From Candidatus Endomicrobium embiratermitis (GTDB lineage: Bacteria > Elusimicrobiota > Endomicrobiia > Endomicrobiales > Endomicrobiaceae), in NCBI GenBank assembly GCA_009781315.1, contig WQYI01000010.1:1-64000 (forward strand): 64,000 nucleotides of DNA, given 5' to 3'. Made by a program: the position numbers and the translations under genes. Below the pieces are notes generated by a model, which saw only the letters and a list, made by a program, of their open reading frames with translations, was not told where the DNA came from and did not search any database. How positions within the stretch are numbered: position 1 is the first letter of the stretch; every line of letters begins with the position of its first letter. Positions 22,047 to 36,609 of this stretch are shown in pieces.

Positions 22047-23879
22047 ATGTGCGGAATAGTCGGATATATAGGCGAAGAAAACGCCGCTGACATAATTTTT
22101 AAAGGGCTTGAGAAGCTTGAGTACAGAGGATATGATTCGGCAGGCATTGCGGTTGTCGCGGAAAATAAAAATCTTGAGATAAGAAGGAGCGTCGGAAAAT
22201 TAAACAATCTTGGCGTCAATCTTATAAAAAACCCTCTTTCGGGAAAAATCGGAATAGGCCATACGAGATGGGCTACGCACGGAAAACCTTCGGCAGAAAA
22301 CGCTCATCCTCACACGGATGAATCGAAAAGCATAGTCGTGGTTCATAACGGCATAATTGAAAATTACGCGGAACTTAAAAATATGCTTCAAAAAGAAGGA
22401 CAGATTTTTAAGTCTGAAACAGACACCGAAGTTGTCGCGCATTTAATAAAAAAATATTATAAAGATAATCTTGCGCAAGCGGTCAAAAGAGCGTTGAAAG
22501 ATATAAGAGGTTCTTACGCTCTGGTAGTTTTAAGCAAGGATGATTCCGACAAAATTGTATGCGCAAGACTCAATGCGCCGCTGATTATAGGAGTCGGTGA
22601 AAAAGAAAATCTCATAGCGTCCGATATTCCTGCGCTTTTATCTTACACAAGAAAAATGATTTTTCTTGAAGACGGAGACGTTGCAGAAGTAGCTAAAGAC
22701 AAAATATCAGTTTTTGATTCTGGCGGAAATCTTCGGGACAGGGAAATAAAGACTATTTTATGGGATGCCATACAGGCTGAAAAAGGCGGCTATAAGCATT
22801 TCATGCTTAAAGAAATTTTTGAGCAGCCGCGGACAATAGAAGATACTTTTAAAGGCAGGATATATCCGGAAGAAGGAAGAGTTTATATCGAAGAAGCGAA
22901 ACTGGAAGCTTCTTTTTTAAGGAAACTCTCAAAAATTTATATTGTCGCCTGCGGCACTTCTTATCATGCCGGGCTTGTCGGAAAATTTTTAATTGAAAAT
23001 TTTGCCAATATTACGGCTGAAGTCGATATTGCTTCGGAGTTCAGATACAGAGAACCGGTATGCGATGATAAGACGCTGGCAGTTGTTATTTCCCAGTCCG
23101 GCGAAACGGCCGATACTTTAGCGGCTTTAAGGCTTGCCAAAGAAAAAGGATGCCGGACTCTTGCCGTATGCAATGTTGTAGGCTCAAGCATAAGCCGCGA
23201 AGCGCATCATATAGTTTACACGCACTGCGGGCCTGAAATCGGCGTCGCGTCGACAAAAGCGTTTACCGGTCAGCTTACGGCATTGTACATGCTTGCTTTG
23301 GATTGGGCGGCAAAAAAGGAAACTCTTTCAAAAGATATTCTAAAAAAATATTTGAAAGAGCTTTGGGAAATTCCTCTGAAAGTCAGCGAATTTCTTAAAA
23401 ATGCGGATAGCGTTTACGAAACGGCTAAAATTATTTCCAATAAAAGAGATTTTTTATATTTGGGAAGAAACGTAAATTATCCCGTGGCTTTGGAAGGCGC
23501 GCTGAAATTAAAAGAAATTTCTTATATACACGCCGAAGGTTATCCGGCAGGCGAAATGAAGCACGGTCCGATTGCTTTGATTGACGACAGAATGCCTATC
23601 GTGGCAATTGCGCCGTACGGAAAAGTTTATGAAAAAATGCTTTCAAATATAGAGGAAGCAAAAGCCAGAGGCGGAACCGTGATAGCGGTTGTAAACGAGA
23701 AAGACAAAGTTATAAAACAAAAGAGCGATTACAGTATTTTTATCCCTGAAACAGACGAATATTTTTCACCGTTTATTACGGTTATACCGTTGCAGCTTTT
23801 AGCGTATTATATCGCCGTGATACTGGGATGCGATGTTGACCAGCCGAGGAATTTAGCTAAGTCTGTCACTGTTGAATAA
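22047..23879 (+). CDS. glmS: Glutamine-fructose-6-phosphate aminotransferase
   Basis: GlmS makes glucosamine-6-phosphate from fructose-6-phosphate and glutamine. The 610-residue protein keeps the N-terminal nucleophile (MCGIVGYIG, Cys2), HTRWATHG, HNGIIENY and the two sugar-isomerase domains (CGTSYHAG, SQSGETADTLAAL, EGYPAGEMKHGPIALID, and a C-terminal DQPRNLAKSVTVE). It therefore retains an intact glutaminase, unlike CarA and PurF elsewhere in the window. No glmS ribozyme can lie upstream because the gene starts one base after pdxJ. Confidence 0.97.
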   Translation: MCGIVGYIGEENAADIIFKGLEKLEYRGYDSAGIAVVAENKNLEIRRSVGKLNNLGVNLIKNPLSGKIGIGHTRWATHGKPSAENAHPHTDESKSIVVVHNGIIENYAELKNMLQKEGQIFKSETDTEVVAHLIKKYYKDNLAQAVKRALKDIRGSYALVVLSKDDSDKIVCARLNAPLIIGVGEKENLIASDIPALLSYTRKMIFLEDGDVAEVAKDKISVFDSGGNLRDREIKTILWDAIQAEKGGYKHFMLKEIFEQPRTIEDTFKGRIYPEEGRVYIEEAKLEASFLRKLSKIYIVACGTSYHAGLVGKFLIENFANITAEVDIASEFRYREPVCDDKTLAVVISQSGETADTLAALRLAKEKGCRTLAVCNVVGSSISREAHHIVYTHCGPEIGVASTKAFTGQLTALYMLALDWAAKKETLSKDILKKYLKELWEIPLKVSEFLKNADSVYETAKIISNKRDFLYLGRNVNYPVALEGALKLKEISYIHAEGYPAGEMKHGPIALIDDRMPIVAIAPYGKVYEKMLSNIEEAKARGGTVIAVVNEKDKVIKQKSDYSIFIPETDEYFSPFITVIPLQLLAYYIAVILGCDVDQPRNLAKSVTVE

Positions 23880-27298: not shown

Positions 27299-27375
27299 AT
27301 AATAATAGAACCCTAAAAAATTCGGAGTTTATTACTTATTATGAAATTTTATATAGAGAATTATTTAAAATTTTG

Positions 27376-27462
27376 ACTAGTTGAGTTTGAATTTCGGAGA
27401 GCGGAGCTGTTTTGTTTTTGTGAAACAAAAACTTACTAACTCCTCACTTCAAACTGTCGTTA
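27376..27462. repeat. Heptamer inverted-repeat element, decayed
   Basis: The right side is well preserved: ACTAACTCCTCACTTCAAAC units and the border TGTCGTTA (27455-27462). The left arm (TAGTTGAGTTTGAATTTCGGAG) is partly degenerate but still complementary. The centre contains a TTTTGTTTTTGTGAAACAAAAA hairpin. The next gene's AAAAGGAG follows directly. Confidence 0.5.
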
Positions 27463-27474
27463 AAAGGAGATATC

Positions 27475-27978
27475 TTGAAATACGTTATTTTTGGTATAGT
27501 TGCTTTCTTTTTGTTGTTTGTCGTCATTAGGGCGTATAAAGTATATTTTGAAAATGAAAAAGAAATGCCTCAATACTCCGGTGAAGAGATTAAGGTTAAG
27601 ATTACTAAGATAACTAAAGAAAGATTTAAAGAATTGTATGATGCATCAGCATTTACGGTTGAGGGCGCAGACGGTTCTTTAGATGATTGGTTTATCATGC
27701 TTAATCAGCAAATGAAAAAAATGGGTATTGGCGAAGTATCTGAAATGTTTACTTTCACCGGAAAGGATATGAATGAACACTATAAGCTGACAGGCAATAA
27801 TGCATATCAGGATGATCTGATATTTTTGTCTTTTAAACTTGACAATTTAAACAAGTTTAAGTTGACATCGCTTAAAAGAATGAGGCTCCAGAACGGTGAT
27901 TGGCTTAACGGTCGCTGGTTTGATGACATTGTAGATAATAATGAAGAGAGAGAAAGAAATAAAAATGATGAAGATTAA
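27475..27978 (+). CDS. Unrecognised membrane-anchored protein
   Basis: I do not recognise a family. The 167-residue product has one N-terminal membrane helix (about residues 3-20) and a mixed-charge soluble part that ends in a very acidic, Asn-rich tail. Translation most likely starts at TTG (27475), preceded by a strong AAAAGGAG that sits at the end of a repeat element. It stands alone between the M20 gene and the carA promoter. Confidence 0.6.
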   Translation: MKYVIFGIVAFFLLFVVIRAYKVYFENEKEMPQYSGEEIKVKITKITKERFKELYDASAFTVEGADGSLDDWFIMLNQQMKKMGIGEVSEMFTFTGKDMNEHYKLTGNNAYQDDLIFLSFKLDNLNKFKLTSLKRMRLQNGDWLNGRWFDDIVDNNEERERNKNDED

Positions 27979-28020
27979 AACTAAAATAGAGGATTTCTTA
28001 AAGACCGGAAAGGATTATAA

Positions 28021-28050
28021 TTGACATTTTGCATAAAAATATTTTATACT
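28021..28050 (+). promoter_or_regulatory. Strong promoter upstream of carAB
   Basis: TTGACA (28021-28026) and TATACT (28045-28050) with an 18-base spacer form a near-consensus sigma-70-type promoter. It is followed by a leader of about 160 bases before carA. Confidence 0.65.
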
Positions 28051-28115
28051 TACTAAACCCCAATAGAAGTTTTTAATAATTAAATAAATCTGATTGAATG
28101 TGAAGGGTGAATACG

Positions 28116-28148
28116 TCCTAAAAGTTTTTTAAATTTTAGGATATTTTT
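28116..28148 (+). terminator. Hairpin with T-rich tail in the carA leader
   Basis: TCCTAAAA (28116-28123) pairs with TTTTAGGA (28134-28141), followed by TATTTTTG. In the transcript from 28021 this would be an attenuator-like terminator about 70 bases before carA. A good -10 box (TATAAT, 28186-28191) lies after it, so a second start site beyond the terminator is possible. The stem is AT-rich and its strength uncertain. Confidence 0.45.
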
Positions 28149-28216
28149 GTGTGTATAGATTGCATTTTTGATATTAAAAAGGCGTTATAATTAAATTTTA
28201 CATATAGGAATAAGCC

Positions 28217-29350
28217 ATGAAAAAAGACGAAAAAGTTTTACAGAAAAAGTACAAAAAGGCTTATCTCGAACTTTCTAACGGGATAACTCTTGAAGGAAGC
28301 GCTATCGGCGCTGACGCGACGGTAAGCGGCGAAATGGTCTTTAATACGGGAATGTTAGGATACAGCGAAACAATGACAGACCCGTCGTATCTGGGTCAAA
28401 TTTTAGTCTTCAGCTTCTGTCTCATAGGAAATTACGGAATCCCTGCCCCCAAAGGCGGGGATTTTTTTATGACTAAAGGGCACGAAAGCAGTTCCATAAA
28501 AACCCAGGGCATAATAGTTTCCGATATTTATGACGTCTGCCACCACCATGACGGCGGGATATCTTTAGAGCAGTGGATGATAGAAAATAATGTGCCCGGA
28601 ATCGCGGGCATAGATACAAGATATTTAGTACAGATGATAAGGGAAAACGGAAATCTTTTCGGACGTATTGTTCCGGAGGGCGCGAAAAAAGAAAAACTTA
28701 ACAGATTTGAATTTTTAAATAATTTCAGCGACGGCGAATATGTCGATCCTTCGAAATATAATCTCATGCCGTCGGTATCAACGAAAGAAATACAAAAGTT
28801 CGGAACAGGAGCGAAAAAAGTCGCGGTTATAGACTGCGGCTCGAAGCTCACTATTTCAAGAATGCTTGTAGAAAGAGGGTGCAAGGTCTTGCTTGTGCCT
28901 TGGGATACCGATTTTTCTAAAATAGATGCTGACGGCTGGATTATATCCAACGGTCCGGGAGATCCTCAAAACACCGGCGATTTGGTTGAAAGAGTAAGAA
29001 AAGACGTTATTGGTTCGGGTAAACCGGTTTTCGGAATATGTCTTGGGAATCAGATATTGGCGTTGGCTTCGGGAGCTAAGACAAAAAGGCTTGCTCGCGG
29101 ACATATAAGCCACAATCAGCCTGTTTTTTCTCTTCCTGACAGAAATGCGTATATGACAAGCCAGAACCACAGGTATGCCGTAGATAAAAAAAGCATACAG
29201 GAAGGCTGGGAACTCTGGTTTGAAAACGCCAATGACGGGTCCGTGGAAGGTTTAAGGCATAAAACAAAACCGTATATGTCCGTTCAATTCTATCCTGAAA
29301 ACGATACAAGCTGGATTATGGATAAATTCGTAAATTTAATAAAAAAATAA
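28217..29350 (+). CDS. carA: Carbamoyl-phosphate synthase small subunit with a degenerate glutaminase site
   Basis: CarA normally hydrolyses glutamine and passes ammonia to CarB. The 377-residue protein has the N-terminal CarA domain and a class-I amidotransferase domain (about 195-377). The nucleophile Cys275 is present in GICLGNQ, and Glu361 is present. The catalytic His expected two residues before that Glu is Tyr359: the motif reads VQFYPEN instead of VQ(Y/F)HPEA. The His usually found in GICLGHQ is also Asn. Cys-to-His spacing (84) equals that in E. coli. Glutamine use is therefore doubtful, and free ammonia may be the donor. carB follows after 23 bases. Confidence 0.9.
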   Translation: MKKDEKVLQKKYKKAYLELSNGITLEGSAIGADATVSGEMVFNTGMLGYSETMTDPSYLGQILVFSFCLIGNYGIPAPKGGDFFMTKGHESSSIKTQGIIVSDIYDVCHHHDGGISLEQWMIENNVPGIAGIDTRYLVQMIRENGNLFGRIVPEGAKKEKLNRFEFLNNFSDGEYVDPSKYNLMPSVSTKEIQKFGTGAKKVAVIDCGSKLTISRMLVERGCKVLLVPWDTDFSKIDADGWIISNGPGDPQNTGDLVERVRKDVIGSGKPVFGICLGNQILALASGAKTKRLARGHISHNQPVFSLPDRNAYMTSQNHRYAVDKKSIQEGWELWFENANDGSVEGLRHKTKPYMSVQFYPENDTSWIMDKFVNLIKK

Positions 29351-29373: not shown

Positions 29374-32300
29374 ATGCCTATTTTAGATTTTTTGCTTCCC
29401 AAAAACGGGAAAAAACAGAAAGTAATTTTGCTGGGTTCGGGCGCTTTGTCCATAGGACAGGCGGGAGAGTTTGATTATTCCGGTTCTCAGGCTATTAAAG
29501 CTCTAGTGGAAGAAGATTTGGATGTTATTGTTATTAACCCCAATATAGCTTCCGTTCAGACAAATTCCGGACCGAACAAAAAAGTCTATTTTTATCCGAT
29601 TACTCCGTTTTGGGTTGAGAAAATCATAAAAATAGAAAAACCCGCGGCGATTATTTCATCATTCGGCGGTCAGACGTCTTTAAACTGCGTTATAGAACTT
29701 GAAAAAACCGGAGTACTGAAAAAATACGGCGTTAAAGTTCTGGGAACGCAGGTTGACGCTTTGGAAATGTCCGAAGACAGAGATTTGTTCGCAAAACAAA
29801 TGCAGTCCATAAATTTGCCGATTGCCAAAAGCCGGACGGCAAATACGGTTGACGAAGCGTTGAAAATCGCGGAAGAAATAGGTTATCCGGTCATTACCCG
29901 TTCTGCTTTTGCTTTAGGCGGTCTTGGTTCGGGACTCGCAAGAACGCCTGCGGAACTTAAAAGGCTTACCCAGGCTGCTTTAATGTCTTCTCCGCAAGTA
30001 TTGGTTGAAAAATCGCTTCACGGCTGGAAAGAAATAGAATACGAAGTGATGAGAGATAAAAGCGGCAACTGCATAACTATTTGTAATATGGAAAACATGG
30101 ATCCTATGGGTATTCATACCGGCGATTCAATAGTTATTGCTCCTTGCCAGTCAATAAACAATACCGAAGTAGGTATGCTTCGCGAAGCCGCTATAAAAAT
30201 TGCCAAAAGCGTAGGTATTATAGGCGAATGTAATGTTCAATACGCTTTAGACCCGAACGGTTATGATTTTTACGTTATAGAAATTAACGCGAGGCTTTCG
30301 CGTTCGTCGGCGCTTGCAAGCAAAGCTACTGGTTATCCTATAGCTTATATAGCGGCAAAAGTAGTTATAGGTTTTGATTTGCTTGAACTGAAAAATCCGG
30401 TCACAGGTACGACATCGGCATTTTATGAACCTTCTTTGGATTATGTTTCGCTTAAATTTCCCCGTTGGGATTTAAGCAAATTCAGCGGCGTTTCAAAATT
30501 GCTCGGCACTCAGATGAAATCCGTAGGCGAGGTTATGGCTATAGGCAGAAATTTCTGCGAAGTTATACAGAAAGCCTTGAGGATGGTCAACGAAAACGAG
30601 GAAGGCATTACGGTCAGCGTTTTTAAAAATGCTGCGGATGACGAGCTTGAAAAAGAGCTTTTAGATCCTACAAATTTAAGAGTATTTGCTATTTACGAAA
30701 GTTTTAAACGTGGTAAAACTCTTGAATATGTCTATGATAAAACCAAGATAGATTACTGGTTTTTATCGCATATTCATTATCTCGCGTCTTTGGAAACCGA
30801 GCTTTTGGATTTCTTTGCGGTAAAAGTAAAACGCGACGTTGTTACCAAAGAGGAAATTTATAAAGATTTTTCAAAAATAGAAAAGCAGCATTTTATCCGT
30901 ATTAAATCAAGAGGATTTTCGGATTTCCAGCTTACAAAAATATACTTATCCGCAGTCAGCACTGGAAAAATCAAACTGACGACAAGAGAAATCAGAAATC
31001 TGTCGCTGGGCATAAGAAAATTGAGAAAAAAACTTAAAATTCAGCCTGTTGTAAAACAGATAGACACTACTTCTTCGGAATACGCGACAAAATCAAATTA
31101 TCTCTATCTTACTTACGACGGCGTGCACAGCGACGTGTCGGTAAAGAAAAATAAAAGCAGCATAATTACGCTTGGAAGCGGAAGTTACCGAATAGGTTCG
31201 AGTCTTGAGTTTGACTGGTGTTCGGTTATGACGAGCAGTTATTTTAAACAAAAGAAAAACGACAGTGTTATAATAAACTGCAATCCCGAAACCGTTTCAA
31301 CGGATTTCAGCGCGTCCGACAGACTGTATTTTGAAGAACTTTCTTTTGAGAGGGTGTTGGATATTATAGACATAGAAAGCCCAAAAGGCGTAATAGCCTG
31401 TATGGGAGGACAAAACCCGAATAACTTAATACAGCCATTGAGCGAAGTGAAAGTTAATATTTTAGGACACAGTCCAAAAAGCGTTGAAGGAGCTGAAGAC
31501 CGTGTAAAATTCTCGGCAATGCTTGACAAATTCGGAATAGACCAGCCTGAATGGACTTCCGCTACTTCAATAGAAGAAATAGAAAAGTTTATAGAGAAAG
31601 TCGGGTTTCCGGTTTTAATACGTCCGAGTTTCGTGTTGTCCGGGACGCTTATGAACGTAGCAAACGACAAAAAGAGCCTGGATTATTATTTATCGCTTAC
31701 CAAAGACATTTCTGCGGATTTTCCGGTTGTAATATCTAAATTTATTTTAGACGCTAAAGAAATAGAGTGCGACGGAATAGCCAAAAACGGGGAAGTGATG
31801 ATGTCTCTTGTCAGCGAGCATGTGGAAAACGCGGGCGTGCATTCCGGGGACGCTACAATGGTGTTTCCCGCGCAAAAGCTATACGGGCATACCGTGAACG
31901 TGATAAAAGATATAACCAGAAAAATAATCAAAGGGCTTAACCTTAACGGACCGTTTAATATACAGTTTATAGCTAAAGACAATGATGTAAAAGTTATCGA
32001 ATGTAATGCGAGAGCGTCGCGGTCATTCCCGTTTATTTCAAAAGTTTCGGGTGTAAACCTTACTGAAGTCGCGTGCAAAGTTATGAATAACGAAAAAGTC
32101 AAAGAAATACTGATAGACGAAAGCAAAATTCCGTATATAGGAGTAAAAGCGTCGATGTTTAGTTTTCAAAGGCTTGACGGAGCAGACCCTGTGACAGGCG
32201 TTGAAATGGCGTCAACGGGCGAGGTAGGATGTTTGGGTAAGAAATTTGACGAAGCAATGCTTTTATCGATGGAAGCGACAAAAGTGGTAAAACCTAAAAA

Positions 32301-32685
32301 AGGGATATTGCTGAGCACCGGAAGGGAAAAAGACAAAGTAAAATTTATGGAAGTAGTAGACAATATATATAAATTAGGGGTTCCTGTATACGCGACAAAA
32401 GGAACGGGCGAATATCTGCAAAAGCACGGTTATGAGGTAAATATTGTTCATTGGAACAGAACACCGAGAGCCGTTGACACGATTATAGACGGCAAAGTTG
32501 ATTTTGTAATAAACATAAACAAAAGTTTGACGGTAGAGGAGCTTAAAAACAATTCTGAAATAAGAAAAACCGCGGTACGGTGCAGTTGTTCAATTTTAAC
32601 GAATCTTGAAAAAGCAATGTCATATCTGAGAGCGTTTGATTCATACGAAAAGCTTCAAAATATAGAAGAGATGATAAGCCTTTAA
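29374..32685 (+). CDS. carB: Carbamoyl-phosphate synthase large subunit
   Basis: CarB makes carbamoyl phosphate from bicarbonate, ammonia and two ATP for pyrimidines and arginine. The 1103-residue protein has both ATP-grasp halves (first about 10-430, second about 580-960), an oligomerisation domain and a C-terminal MGS-like regulatory domain. Motifs such as LGSGALSIGQAGEFDYSGSQ, CNMENMDPMGIHTG and GECNVQYAL resemble the eukaryotic CAD/CPS I and Bacteroidetes-type enzymes more than E. coli CarB, as far as I recall those sequences. The stop codon is part of a repeat element border. It pairs with a CarA that appears glutaminase-defective. Confidence 0.95.
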   Translation: MPILDFLLPKNGKKQKVILLGSGALSIGQAGEFDYSGSQAIKALVEEDLDVIVINPNIASVQTNSGPNKKVYFYPITPFWVEKIIKIEKPAAIISSFGGQTSLNCVIELEKTGVLKKYGVKVLGTQVDALEMSEDRDLFAKQMQSINLPIAKSRTANTVDEALKIAEEIGYPVITRSAFALGGLGSGLARTPAELKRLTQAALMSSPQVLVEKSLHGWKEIEYEVMRDKSGNCITICNMENMDPMGIHTGDSIVIAPCQSINNTEVGMLREAAIKIAKSVGIIGECNVQYALDPNGYDFYVIEINARLSRSSALASKATGYPIAYIAAKVVIGFDLLELKNPVTGTTSAFYEPSLDYVSLKFPRWDLSKFSGVSKLLGTQMKSVGEVMAIGRNFCEVIQKALRMVNENEEGITVSVFKNAADDELEKELLDPTNLRVFAIYESFKRGKTLEYVYDKTKIDYWFLSHIHYLASLETELLDFFAVKVKRDVVTKEEIYKDFSKIEKQHFIRIKSRGFSDFQLTKIYLSAVSTGKIKLTTREIRNLSLGIRKLRKKLKIQPVVKQIDTTSSEYATKSNYLYLTYDGVHSDVSVKKNKSSIITLGSGSYRIGSSLEFDWCSVMTSSYFKQKKNDSVIINCNPETVSTDFSASDRLYFEELSFERVLDIIDIESPKGVIACMGGQNPNNLIQPLSEVKVNILGHSPKSVEGAEDRVKFSAMLDKFGIDQPEWTSATSIEEIEKFIEKVGFPVLIRPSFVLSGTLMNVANDKKSLDYYLSLTKDISADFPVVISKFILDAKEIECDGIAKNGEVMMSLVSEHVENAGVHSGDATMVFPAQKLYGHTVNVIKDITRKIIKGLNLNGPFNIQFIAKDNDVKVIECNARASRSFPFISKVSGVNLTEVACKVMNNEKVKEILIDESKIPYIGVKASMFSFQRLDGADPVTGVEMASTGEVGCLGKKFDEAMLLSMEATKVVKPKKGILLSTGREKDKVKFMEVVDNIYKLGVPVYATKGTGEYLQKHGYEVNIVHWNRTPRAVDTIIDGKVDFVININKSLTVEELKNNSEIRKTAVRCSCSILTNLEKAMSYLRAFDSYEKLQNIEEMISL

Positions 32686-33713: not shown

Positions 33714-35090
33714 ATGGGTGGAATTGTAGGAGTTGAAAACACGCAGGAAGCGTCGACGTTAGTTGCCGTCGGGCTTATGACTTTGCAGCACAGAGGGGAA
33801 GAATCTTCGGGTATCAGTATTAGCGGAAACGGGAATATGAAGACTTTCCGTTCCATGGGGCTTGTTTCAAGGCTTGTAAACTCCGATGCGTTAAACCAGC
33901 ACGCGGGAACAGCCGCAATAGGGCACGTACGTTACAGCTCTGCCGCTAAAAGTTCTTTAGTAAATGCTCAGCCTTTTCAGATGAGTTGTATACACGGGCA
34001 GGTTTCAGTCTCTAAAAACGGCAATTTCACGAATTTTACAAAAATAAAAAATATGCTTTTAAAACGCGGCGCGATTTTTAATCATACTTCCGATACGGAA
34101 ATATTATTGCATCTTATCGCGATGTCAAAAGGCAATTTTCCGGAAGTTATTGCAAAGTCTATGAAAATGTTAGACGGCGCGTTTTCCGTTGTTGTTTTAA
34201 AGGACAAAATGCTTATAGGCGCGAGAGACGTCAGCGGTATCAGACCGCTTGTTTTGGGGAAAATAGATAATTCGTATATAATATCTTCCGAAACTGCAGC
34301 TATTGAAGTTATGGGCGGAAAATATATCAGAGATATAGAACCCGGGGAAATAGTCGTAATAGAAAACGGAAAAATAAAGAAATCGTTTTTTTATAAAAAA
34401 CCTGTAAAGCAGTCAACCTGTATATTTGAACAGGTATATATTTCAAGACCCGACAGCATAATGTTCGGACAAAGCGTTAAAGAAGCGAGAGTAAAAATGG
34501 GAGCTTATTTGGCCGAGCAGATGAAAGGCATTAAAGCCGATATAGTGATGCCTGTTCCGGACACGGGGTATTTTGCGGCAATGGGATTTTCAAGAGCATC
34601 GGGCATTCTTTTTGAAGCGGGGTTTGTCAGAAATCATTATTTAGGGCGCTCATTTATAAAACCTTCTCAAAACTTAAGAGATATGACCGCGAAATTGAAA
34701 TTGCGTCCGATAAAAGACGTTGTCAACGGAAAAAATATAGTTCTTATAGACGATTCGATAGTCAGAGGCACGACTTCAAGAAGAATGATCAAAATGCTTA
34801 AAGACGCGGGCGTAAAAAAAATTCATTTAGCCCTGTCTTGTCCTCCCGTAATAGCCCCTTGTTATTACGGAATAGACACGCCTCTTAAAGAACATTTAAT
34901 AGCGGCAAACCAGTCTGCGGAACAAATAAGAAAATACTTAGAAATCGAAAGCTTGACATTCTTGAGTCTTGAAAATTTGATAAAATCCTGCTGTGCGAGT
35001 GAAAAATGCAAAGATGTTTTCTGCGCGGCGTGCTTTTCCAGAAAGTATCCGACAAAAATATCAAAGGATACGTACAGGGAAATGGCTTAA
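33714..35090 (+). CDS. purF: Amidophosphoribosyltransferase homologue lacking the nucleophile Cys
   Basis: PurF makes phosphoribosylamine from PRPP and glutamine, the first step of purine synthesis. In this 458-residue protein the N-terminal Ntn glutaminase domain retains HRGEESSG, GHVRYSS and KNGNFTN, but begins MGGIVGV instead of MCGI(V/F)GV, so the essential Cys nucleophile is Gly (codon GGT). The phosphoribosyltransferase half is intact, with VLIDDSIVRGTTS around residue 345. Cys residues at the end (FCAACFSRKYPT) match the Fe-S-type PurF of B. subtilis. AAAGGA precedes the start. It may use free ammonia or have another role; a canonical purF could exist elsewhere. Confidence 0.85.
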   Translation: MGGIVGVENTQEASTLVAVGLMTLQHRGEESSGISISGNGNMKTFRSMGLVSRLVNSDALNQHAGTAAIGHVRYSSAAKSSLVNAQPFQMSCIHGQVSVSKNGNFTNFTKIKNMLLKRGAIFNHTSDTEILLHLIAMSKGNFPEVIAKSMKMLDGAFSVVVLKDKMLIGARDVSGIRPLVLGKIDNSYIISSETAAIEVMGGKYIRDIEPGEIVVIENGKIKKSFFYKKPVKQSTCIFEQVYISRPDSIMFGQSVKEARVKMGAYLAEQMKGIKADIVMPVPDTGYFAAMGFSRASGILFEAGFVRNHYLGRSFIKPSQNLRDMTAKLKLRPIKDVVNGKNIVLIDDSIVRGTTSRRMIKMLKDAGVKKIHLALSCPPVIAPCYYGIDTPLKEHLIAANQSAEQIRKYLEIESLTFLSLENLIKSCCASEKCKDVFCAACFSRKYPTKISKDTYREMA

Positions 35091-35124
35091 ACGGCCAAGT
35101 ATAGAAAAAATGACGGAGAAAAAA

Positions 35125-36609
35125 ATGAAAATCGGCTTTGATAATTCGTCTTATATGGAAAAGCAGACGGAGCAAATACTTAAAAGAGTAGAGCAATTTA
35201 ATCATAAGCTGTATCTAGAATTCGGCGGAAAGCTCTTTGACGATTACCACGCGGCGAGGGTCTTGCCCGGGTTTAACGTAAACGGTAAAATTTTGCTTCT
35301 GGAAAAGTTAAAGGAAAAAACCGAAATTATTATATGTATCAACGCGTCCGATATCGAAAAAAACAAAATAAGAGCGGATTTGGGAATCACTTATGATATG
35401 GATGTTTTACGCCTCATTGACAATACCAGGAAGATGGGGCTTTATATAAGCAGTATCGTTATTTCGCAATATAAGAATCAGCCGTCCGCGGATATGTTTA
35501 AAAATAAGCTTGAGCGCAGAGGCGAAAAGGTATATATTCATAAGCATATTGAAGGTTATCCTATGAATGTAGATCTTGTTGTGAGCGATAAGGGATACGG
35601 GTCTAATCCGTATATAGAAACAACGAGGCCGCTTGTGGTAGTTACGGCGCCGGGTCCCGGAAGCGGAAAAATGGCGACTTGCCTTTCGCAGATATATCAC
35701 GAGCATAAAAGAAATATAACTTCGGGATACGCTAAATTTGAGACGTTTCCCGTATGGAATCTGCCTTTAAACCATCCCGTAAATCTTGCGTATGAAGCGG
35801 CCACCGCGGATTTGAATGATGTTAACGCGATTGATCCTTTTCATCTGGAAACATACGGTAAAACAGCGGTAAATTATAACCGGGATATTGAAATATTTCC
35901 GATAGTAAAAAATATACTTACTAAAATTATGGGAACAGACAAAGTTTATCAATCACCGACAGACATGGGAGTAAACATGGCGGGATATTGTATTACCGAC
36001 GAGGAATCAGTAAAAGAAGCTGCGAAGCAGGAAATTGTAAGAAGGTATTTCAGAACAAGTTGTGAGTATAAAGAAGGGCATATAGAAATCGGCGCGGTTG
36101 AAAAATTGGAAATTATAATGAAACAGCTTGACATATATCCGGAATACGGGTTAGCGGTAAGACCCGCGTTAGAAAAGTCCGAACAAAATAAATGTCCCTC
36201 TATGGCTTTGATTTTGCCTGATGGTAACGTTATGACCGGAAGAACCACAAACGTTTTAACCGCAGCTTCAAGCCTTGTGTTAAACTGCGTTAAAAAATTA
36301 GCGGGTATCCCGGATGACATTCATCTTATTTCGCCTGCCGTTTTAGAACCTATGCTGATGCTTAAAGAAAAAATTCTTTGTGATAAAAATCCTTTACTTA
36401 ATCTTAATGAAGTTTTAAACGCTTTGAGCATATGCGCCGCGACAAATCCCTTGGCCGGAAAATGCCTCGGGAAACTTTATGATTTAAAAGGCTGCGTGGC
36501 TCATTCCTCGCACATGCTGTCAAAAGCGGATGAAAGCGCGTTTAAAAAATTAGGCATAGACGTTACGTGTACTCCCGAGTTTCCTACAAGTGATTTATAT
36601 TACGTTTAA
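35125..36609 (+). CDS. DUF1846 (UPF0371) family protein
   Basis: The 494-residue product matches the DUF1846 family, known from structures but without an assigned reaction. It begins KIGFDNSSYMEKQTEQI and has LEFGGKLFDDYHAARVLPG, a glycine-rich loop APGPGSGKMATCLSQIYHE that could bind phosphate, FETFPVWNLPLNHPVN and SPTDMGVNMAG. The start at 35125 has GGAG 7 bases upstream; upstream in-frame ATGs overlap purF or lack such a site. It lies 34 bases behind the PurF homologue, so a link to nucleotide or PRPP metabolism is a reasonable but untested idea. Confidence 0.85.
   Translation: MKIGFDNSSYMEKQTEQILKRVEQFNHKLYLEFGGKLFDDYHAARVLPGFNVNGKILLLEKLKEKTEIIICINASDIEKNKIRADLGITYDMDVLRLIDNTRKMGLYISSIVISQYKNQPSADMFKNKLERRGEKVYIHKHIEGYPMNVDLVVSDKGYGSNPYIETTRPLVVVTAPGPGSGKMATCLSQIYHEHKRNITSGYAKFETFPVWNLPLNHPVNLAYEAATADLNDVNAIDPFHLETYGKTAVNYNRDIEIFPIVKNILTKIMGTDKVYQSPTDMGVNMAGYCITDEESVKEAAKQEIVRRYFRTSCEYKEGHIEIGAVEKLEIIMKQLDIYPEYGLAVRPALEKSEQNKCPSMALILPDGNVMTGRTTNVLTAASSLVLNCVKKLAGIPDDIHLISPAVLEPMLMLKEKILCDKNPLLNLNEVLNALSICAATNPLAGKCLGKLYDLKGCVAHSSHMLSKADESAFKKLGIDVTCTPEFPTSDLYYV

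Follow-up and report, generated by a model that had tools for sequence, protein, structure and literature searches.

What becomes of a carbamoyl phosphate synthase (CPS) whose small subunit has lost part of its glutaminase active site? The question is raised by carA of Candidatus Endomicrobium embiratermitis, which lies in the stretch of 64,000 nucleotides analysed here (the window), part of a genome (G000; Endomicrobium, Endomicrobiaceae, Elusimicrobiota) of 1.90 Mb that is 99.97% complete. The encoded protein scores 362.3 bits against TIGR01368, above the cut-off of 307.35, and carA is the sole CPS small subunit gene found in this genome. A second, intact carA was considered and rejected, the other match being a TrpG/PabA-type protein. 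The gene and the positions on which the argument turns are as follows.

28217..29350, + strand: carA, carbamoyl phosphate synthase small subunit, 377 aa, triad Cys275-Tyr359-Glu361 (TIGR01368 match)
29039..29041, + strand: codon 275, TGT, nucleophile Cys retained (sequence and alignment)
29048..29050, + strand: codon 278, AAT, Asn where 63/64 family orthologues have His; probably harmless
29105..29107, + strand: codon 297, ATA, Ile at a nearly invariant Arg (conserved-column comparison)
29291..29293, + strand: codon 359, TAT, Tyr at the catalytic His position (assembly sequence; His in 63/64 family orthologues)
29297..29302, + strand: Glu361/Asn362, junction of a 5-residue deletion (ASSGP in relatives; E. 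coli A356-P360; alignment)

The initial annotation of this locus had reported that Cys275 and Glu361 (GAA, 29297-29299) are present and that Tyr occupies the position of His359, and alignment with E. coli and with the family bears this out: Cys275, Tyr359 and Glu361 align with C269, H353 and E355 of E. coli CarA. H353N is among the mutants of the E. coli small subunit. The Cys-His-Glu glutaminase triad of a TIGR01368-type CarA is broken in the window protein by the replacement of His with Tyr359. Among 64 CarA orthologues from 76 family genomes, one of which (G087, L077) has a broken frame, His is found in 63 and Tyr in the window alone; Cys is likewise found in 63, with Gly in G011, and the triad Glu in all 64. 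Loss of the HPEASPG context had also been noted. The motif is indeed absent, but its absence is a separate event, a deletion of five residues after Glu361 that occurs in three of the 64 orthologues. The other two belong to sister genomes, Candidatus Endomicrobium macrotermitis (G001, JAISVT010000011) and Ca. E. labiotermitis (G003, WRFE01000008), whose CarA retains His but carries Ala or Thr in place of Pro360. E. coli G359, inside the deleted stretch, presumably has a role in the ammonia tunnel; it is the site of a point mutant with a solved structure (1m6v, from its title). These two genomes and G002 (a single contig of 1,588,979 bases, which we take to be probably E. proavitum) are the nearest relatives of the window genome and make a termite origin probable for it, and the CarB tree arranges them as (G002,(G001,(G000,G003))). 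Since the deletion is common to the window, G001 and G003, this tree places it first, in their common ancestor, and has only the window lineage lose His later; the aligned sequences thus indicate that the loop deletion is older than, and separate from, the His loss. Tyr359, whose fixation in the clade had been at issue, is confined to the window species. The weight given to the altered motif GICLGNQ cannot be upheld. The same motif occurs in CarA of other phyla with an intact HPE motif (L181, L189, L191), so that H278N says little, is probably neutral or harmless, and was rejected as part of the lesion. The annotation had overlooked R297I, at a near-invariant column; neither N278 nor I297 is shared by G001 or G003.

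Is the altered protein still maintained, and does it still have a partner? The large subunit gene follows directly.

29374..32685, + strand: carB, large subunit, 1103 aa (TIGR01369, 1329 bits)

Nei-Gojobori dN/dS values, which are rough because several dS exceed 1, are low throughout. For the glutaminase half of CarA they are 0.054 between the window and G001 and 0.066 between the window and G003, and 0.059 for the intact pair G002-G023; for whole CarA they are 0.053 to G001 and 0.068 to G003, for CarB 0.039-0.072 and for PurF 0.066-0.110. The window protein was compared at columns with at least 93% conservation among 63 family CarA: its first half departs at none of 87 such columns and its glutaminase half at 6 of 93 (Fisher p = 0.029), against a family median of 1 in each half; CarA of G001 and of G003 shows 0 departures in the first half and 5 in the glutaminase half. 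This pattern of substitutions indicates that the domain is held by selection while its active site is released. An AlphaFold2 model of CarA has a mean pLDDT of 86.8, with ten-residue blocks of the glutaminase half at 81-98, and the predicted fold is intact, its nearest matches being human CPS1 and E. coli CarA. CarB is a partner with an intact synthase: at 15 positions that we take to be catalytic or nucleotide-binding (E. coli R129, R169, E215, H243, Q285, E299, N301 and R303; R675, R715, E761, H788, Q829, E841 and N843) the residues are identical in the window, G001, G003 and E. coli. Clade-specific CarB changes at conserved columns are few: eight are listed, and those at 156, 266 and 911 occur in all three genomes. 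An OTC/ATC pair able to use carbamoyl phosphate is present in the window genome.

The loss in CarA has company. Three further features of the window bear on nitrogen donation.

33714..35090, + strand: purF, amidophosphoribosyltransferase, start MGGIVG against MCGIVG, nucleophile Cys lost (start-residue comparison)
27299..28216, + strand: region upstream of carA, where G002, G023 and G015 have glnA and a regulator and the window has neither (locus comparison)
22047..23879, + strand: glmS, amidotransferase with the nucleophile Cys kept (MCGIVG), a contrast case (sequence)

In PurF, as in other enzymes of its class, the second residue serves as nucleophile. In the window, purF lies 1 kb downstream of carB and its product begins MGGIVG; the start is MSGIIG in G001, MGGIIG in G003 and MCGIIG in G002, and the Cys-less sister loci are L098 1530-2903 (Ser) and L099 14556-15926 (Gly). 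Among the 31 family PurF with a readable start, Cys is kept in 28 and lost in exactly the three genomes that carry the CarA deletion. These 31 are what remained of 38 rows once seven had been set aside: repeats (L299, L223, L084), a fragment (L209), two without a readable start (L182, L189) and one from outside the family, with Cys present (L115). A PF13507 row, L293 of G023, was left out as unreadable at a contig edge. CTP synthase (PF06418) was found in 11 of 14 genomes and not in G000, G001 and G003, which are nearly complete; the ammonium transporter AmtB (PF00909) in 10 of 15, not in these three, G011 or G030; and canonical GlnA in 9 of 15, not in the same three, G011, G010 or G025. Glutamate dehydrogenase scored above the cut-off in 10 of 14 genomes, G000, G001 and G003 included, and not in G002, G011, G010 and G025. 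G002 is the reverse in every case, with the PurF Cys, CTP synthase, GlnA and AmtB present and glutamate dehydrogenase absent. Its gene order, with names from translations and searches, is gltB parts, glnA, regulator, carA, carB, purF, pyrG, and glnA and the regulator also stand upstream of carA in G023 and G015. Remnants of glnA, the regulator and pyrG were sought near carA in the window, G001 and G003 and not found; GOGAT queries gave weak matches only, the best on GlmS, PurF and an iron-sulphur-type gene in L099. Upstream of carA the window holds an open reading frame of 167 aa (27475-27978) with no NCBIfam match, and downstream of purF a DUF1846 protein (34993-36609), a look-alike of which follows carB in a distant locus (L113). 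Loss of GlnA as a sufficient cause of the CarA change was rejected: the endosymbiotic genomes G010 and G025 are without canonical GlnA but their CarA is intact.

The window genome has not given up glutamine, to judge from its gene content, since a type III glutamine synthetase is encoded and GuaA, TrpG, HisH, PurQ and GlmS all keep the nucleophile Cys. A GSIII-type match was obtained in the window, G010 and G025, that of the window being the one verified as GSIII. PurL is present as well. Erosion has gone further in the sisters: GuaA of G001 and G003 lacks most of the glutaminase domain, neither genome yielded GlmS or PurQ, and TrpG/PabA of G003 (L201) has Ser in place of the nucleophile Cys (GISLGHQ). 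A GuaA with an internally deleted glutaminase domain occurs in G003, G030, G027 (one copy), G001 and G011 (L280, L282, L283, L284, L285). The GuaA tree is poorly resolved; differing deletion boundaries in G001 suggest that these were separate losses. Together, the GuaA, GlmS, PurQ and TrpG losses in G001 and G003 and the GuaA truncations elsewhere would mean that erosion has occurred separately in several lines. The window genome and G002 have a purC-purS-purL-purQ block ahead of purD; G001 and G003 (L309, L312) lack it at that place but keep purF. Second copies of PyrG in G021 and G027, and the only copy found in G030, carry Asn at the position of the triad His; the loci concerned are L266, L267 and L269, the last with Ser for Cys in addition.

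How else might these observations be explained? The glutaminase could be altered rather than lost, Cys275 working with Tyr359 or a neighbouring residue as base and allowing slow use of glutamine. Retention of Cys275, Glu361 and the fold would agree with this, but we regard it as unlikely in view of the His in 63 of 64 orthologues, the deleted loop, the additional change at R297 and the parallel loss of the PurF nucleophile. A gene decaying towards a pseudogene, with carbamoyl phosphate obtained from elsewhere or no longer needed, would suit a lineage that has lost many genes. Selection at a dN/dS near 0.05, the intact frame and CarB, the absence of any departure at the 87 conserved first-half columns, the OTC/ATC pair and a long-lived, dead CarA2 likewise under selection (discussed below) make such decay very unlikely, and the status of carA as a simple pseudogene was rejected on its dN/dS of about 0.05-0.07.

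It is highly improbable that a further cellular glutaminase docks on CarB, or on the dead CarA, and delivers ammonia in trans. TrpG, HisH and PurQ do keep their nucleophiles in the window genome, but CarA still fills the role of CarB partner with its conserved first half kept, and no fusion or neighbouring glutaminase gene is found within the window except GlmS and PurF, both enzymes of other pathways. A sequencing or assembly error at 29291 is the least probable explanation of all: the step from CAT to TAT is one transition, yet N278 and I297 are further changes in the same half of CarA that G001 and G003 do not share, and the deletion and the PurF changes recur in separate genome assemblies.

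We propose, with a probability of about 0.74, that CarA is a glutaminase-dead structural partner of the intact CarB, kept by selection, and that the synthase is fed by free ammonia. The initial annotation had already suggested glutaminase loss and dependence on free ammonia, and this is the best-supported reading; independent evidence agrees with it, namely the loop deleted after Glu, a PurF that has lost its nucleophile, the missing GlnA and AmtB and the glutamate dehydrogenase that is encoded. In an ammonia-rich gut, the ancestor of the window species and its two sisters would have dropped GlnA, AmtB and CTP synthase, dispensed with the nucleophile of PurF and with the loop that follows Glu361 in CarA, and come to rely on glutamate dehydrogenase; the window species would afterwards have lost the triad His. 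Carbamoyl phosphate would be made from free ammonia, bicarbonate and ATP, with ammonia entering through the opened former glutaminase site or by the other route that has been put forward for E. coli CPS and human CPS1. As far as the available part of one survey goes, ammonia in whole termite guts, which need not include the window's host, amounts to 68.7 to 899.6 µmol per g dry weight and is high in fungus-growing species too (PMC4675541). Against the ammonia reading we count, besides the type III glutamine synthetase, the amidotransferases that keep Cys and the intact CarA of G010 and G025, that the sisters keep Cys, His and Glu in CarA, that glutamate dehydrogenase is also found in seven other searched genomes, that AmtB is missing in G011 and G030 too, and that canonical GlnA is missing in G011 too. 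The association comes from three related genomes and so represents one or a few events. A literature search whose coverage mostly excluded subscription journals found no paper on CarA or PurF glutaminase loss in Endomicrobia, and the accessible portion of Mies et al. mentions neither CarA nor PurF. A plasmid search gave no result.

What are the implications of a synthase of this kind? A bacterial CPS appears to lose glutamine use independently, and together with PurF. The close relatives form a natural series from intact to broken, which makes the transition from amidotransferase to ammonia enzyme testable and bears on whether ambient ammonia makes glutamine dispensable as a nitrogen donor. 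There is a precedent within the Endomicrobiaceae. CarA2, a second CarA of an older bacterial type represented by 13 sequences (L046, L047, L049-L055, L094-L097), has lost the triad Glu in 13/13 and Cys in 10/13, and has Tyr at the His position in 12/13. In the loci read (G027, G030, G023, G021, G009) it lies between purA and carB2, and its dN/dS between close genomes is 0.06-0.15, in keeping with purifying selection at short distances. Like the window protein as we read it, CarA2 is a glutaminase-dead CarA adjoining a full carB, mostly with Tyr for His and under purifying selection; it differs in its older lineage, being about 29-37% identical to the window CarA, and in standing beside an intact CarA1 in most genomes that have it. 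Contamination of 5% in G027 and 6% in G030 makes the co-residence of their gene copies in one cell unsure. In another family, one CarA (L048, G049) carries Ser at the Cys position and Tyr at the His position, and these cases, together with PyrG, suggest that glutaminase-dead amidotransferases have long been retained in the group. The truncated GuaA of G001, G003, G030, G027 and G011 is similar in that the glutaminase is lost and the synthetase part kept, but it arose by a large internal deletion and not by a point loss, and the window's own GuaA is intact.

We consider it somewhat better than an even chance that this lineage is shifting central biosynthesis from glutamine to free ammonia and is a bacterial parallel to the ammonia-specific synthase of vertebrates, possibly carrying a regulatory pocket of the N-acetylglutamate type. 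The window CarB is identical to human CPS1 at T1391, T1394, W1410, N1437, T1443, N1449 and R1453 and differs at Q1368, R1371, P1439, K1444 and F1445; E. coli CarB differs from human CPS1 at W1410, T1443 and N1449. The W1410 position holds Trp in family CarB and Lys in E. coli, and the N1449 position holds Asn in family CarB. In the part of the CPS literature available here, glutamine is said to feed every CPS type save CPS I, and human CPS1 is described as having lost Cys and using external ammonia, the entry of which may bypass the old glutaminase site (PMC4655335). Vertebrate CPS I, which keeps an inactive glutaminase-like domain and uses free ammonia (PMC4655335), would in this respect be a parallel to the proposed state of the window enzyme, and human CPS1 is the solved structure closest to the window CarA by sequence and fold. 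CPS I, however, lost Cys (Ser294) where the window CarA lost His, and it is one fused polypeptide that needs N-acetylglutamate, whereas carA and carB of the window are two adjoining, unfused genes. E. coli CarAB shares the fold and the partner, and its variants whose glutamine tunnel is blocked or perforated are reported, in the same portion of that account, to keep normal activity on external ammonia (PMC4655335). The E. coli small-subunit mutants of known structure (1c30, C269S; 1m6v, G359F; from their titles) were made in the laboratory, whereas the window CarA has lost His, and the loop with the counterpart of G359, by evolution.
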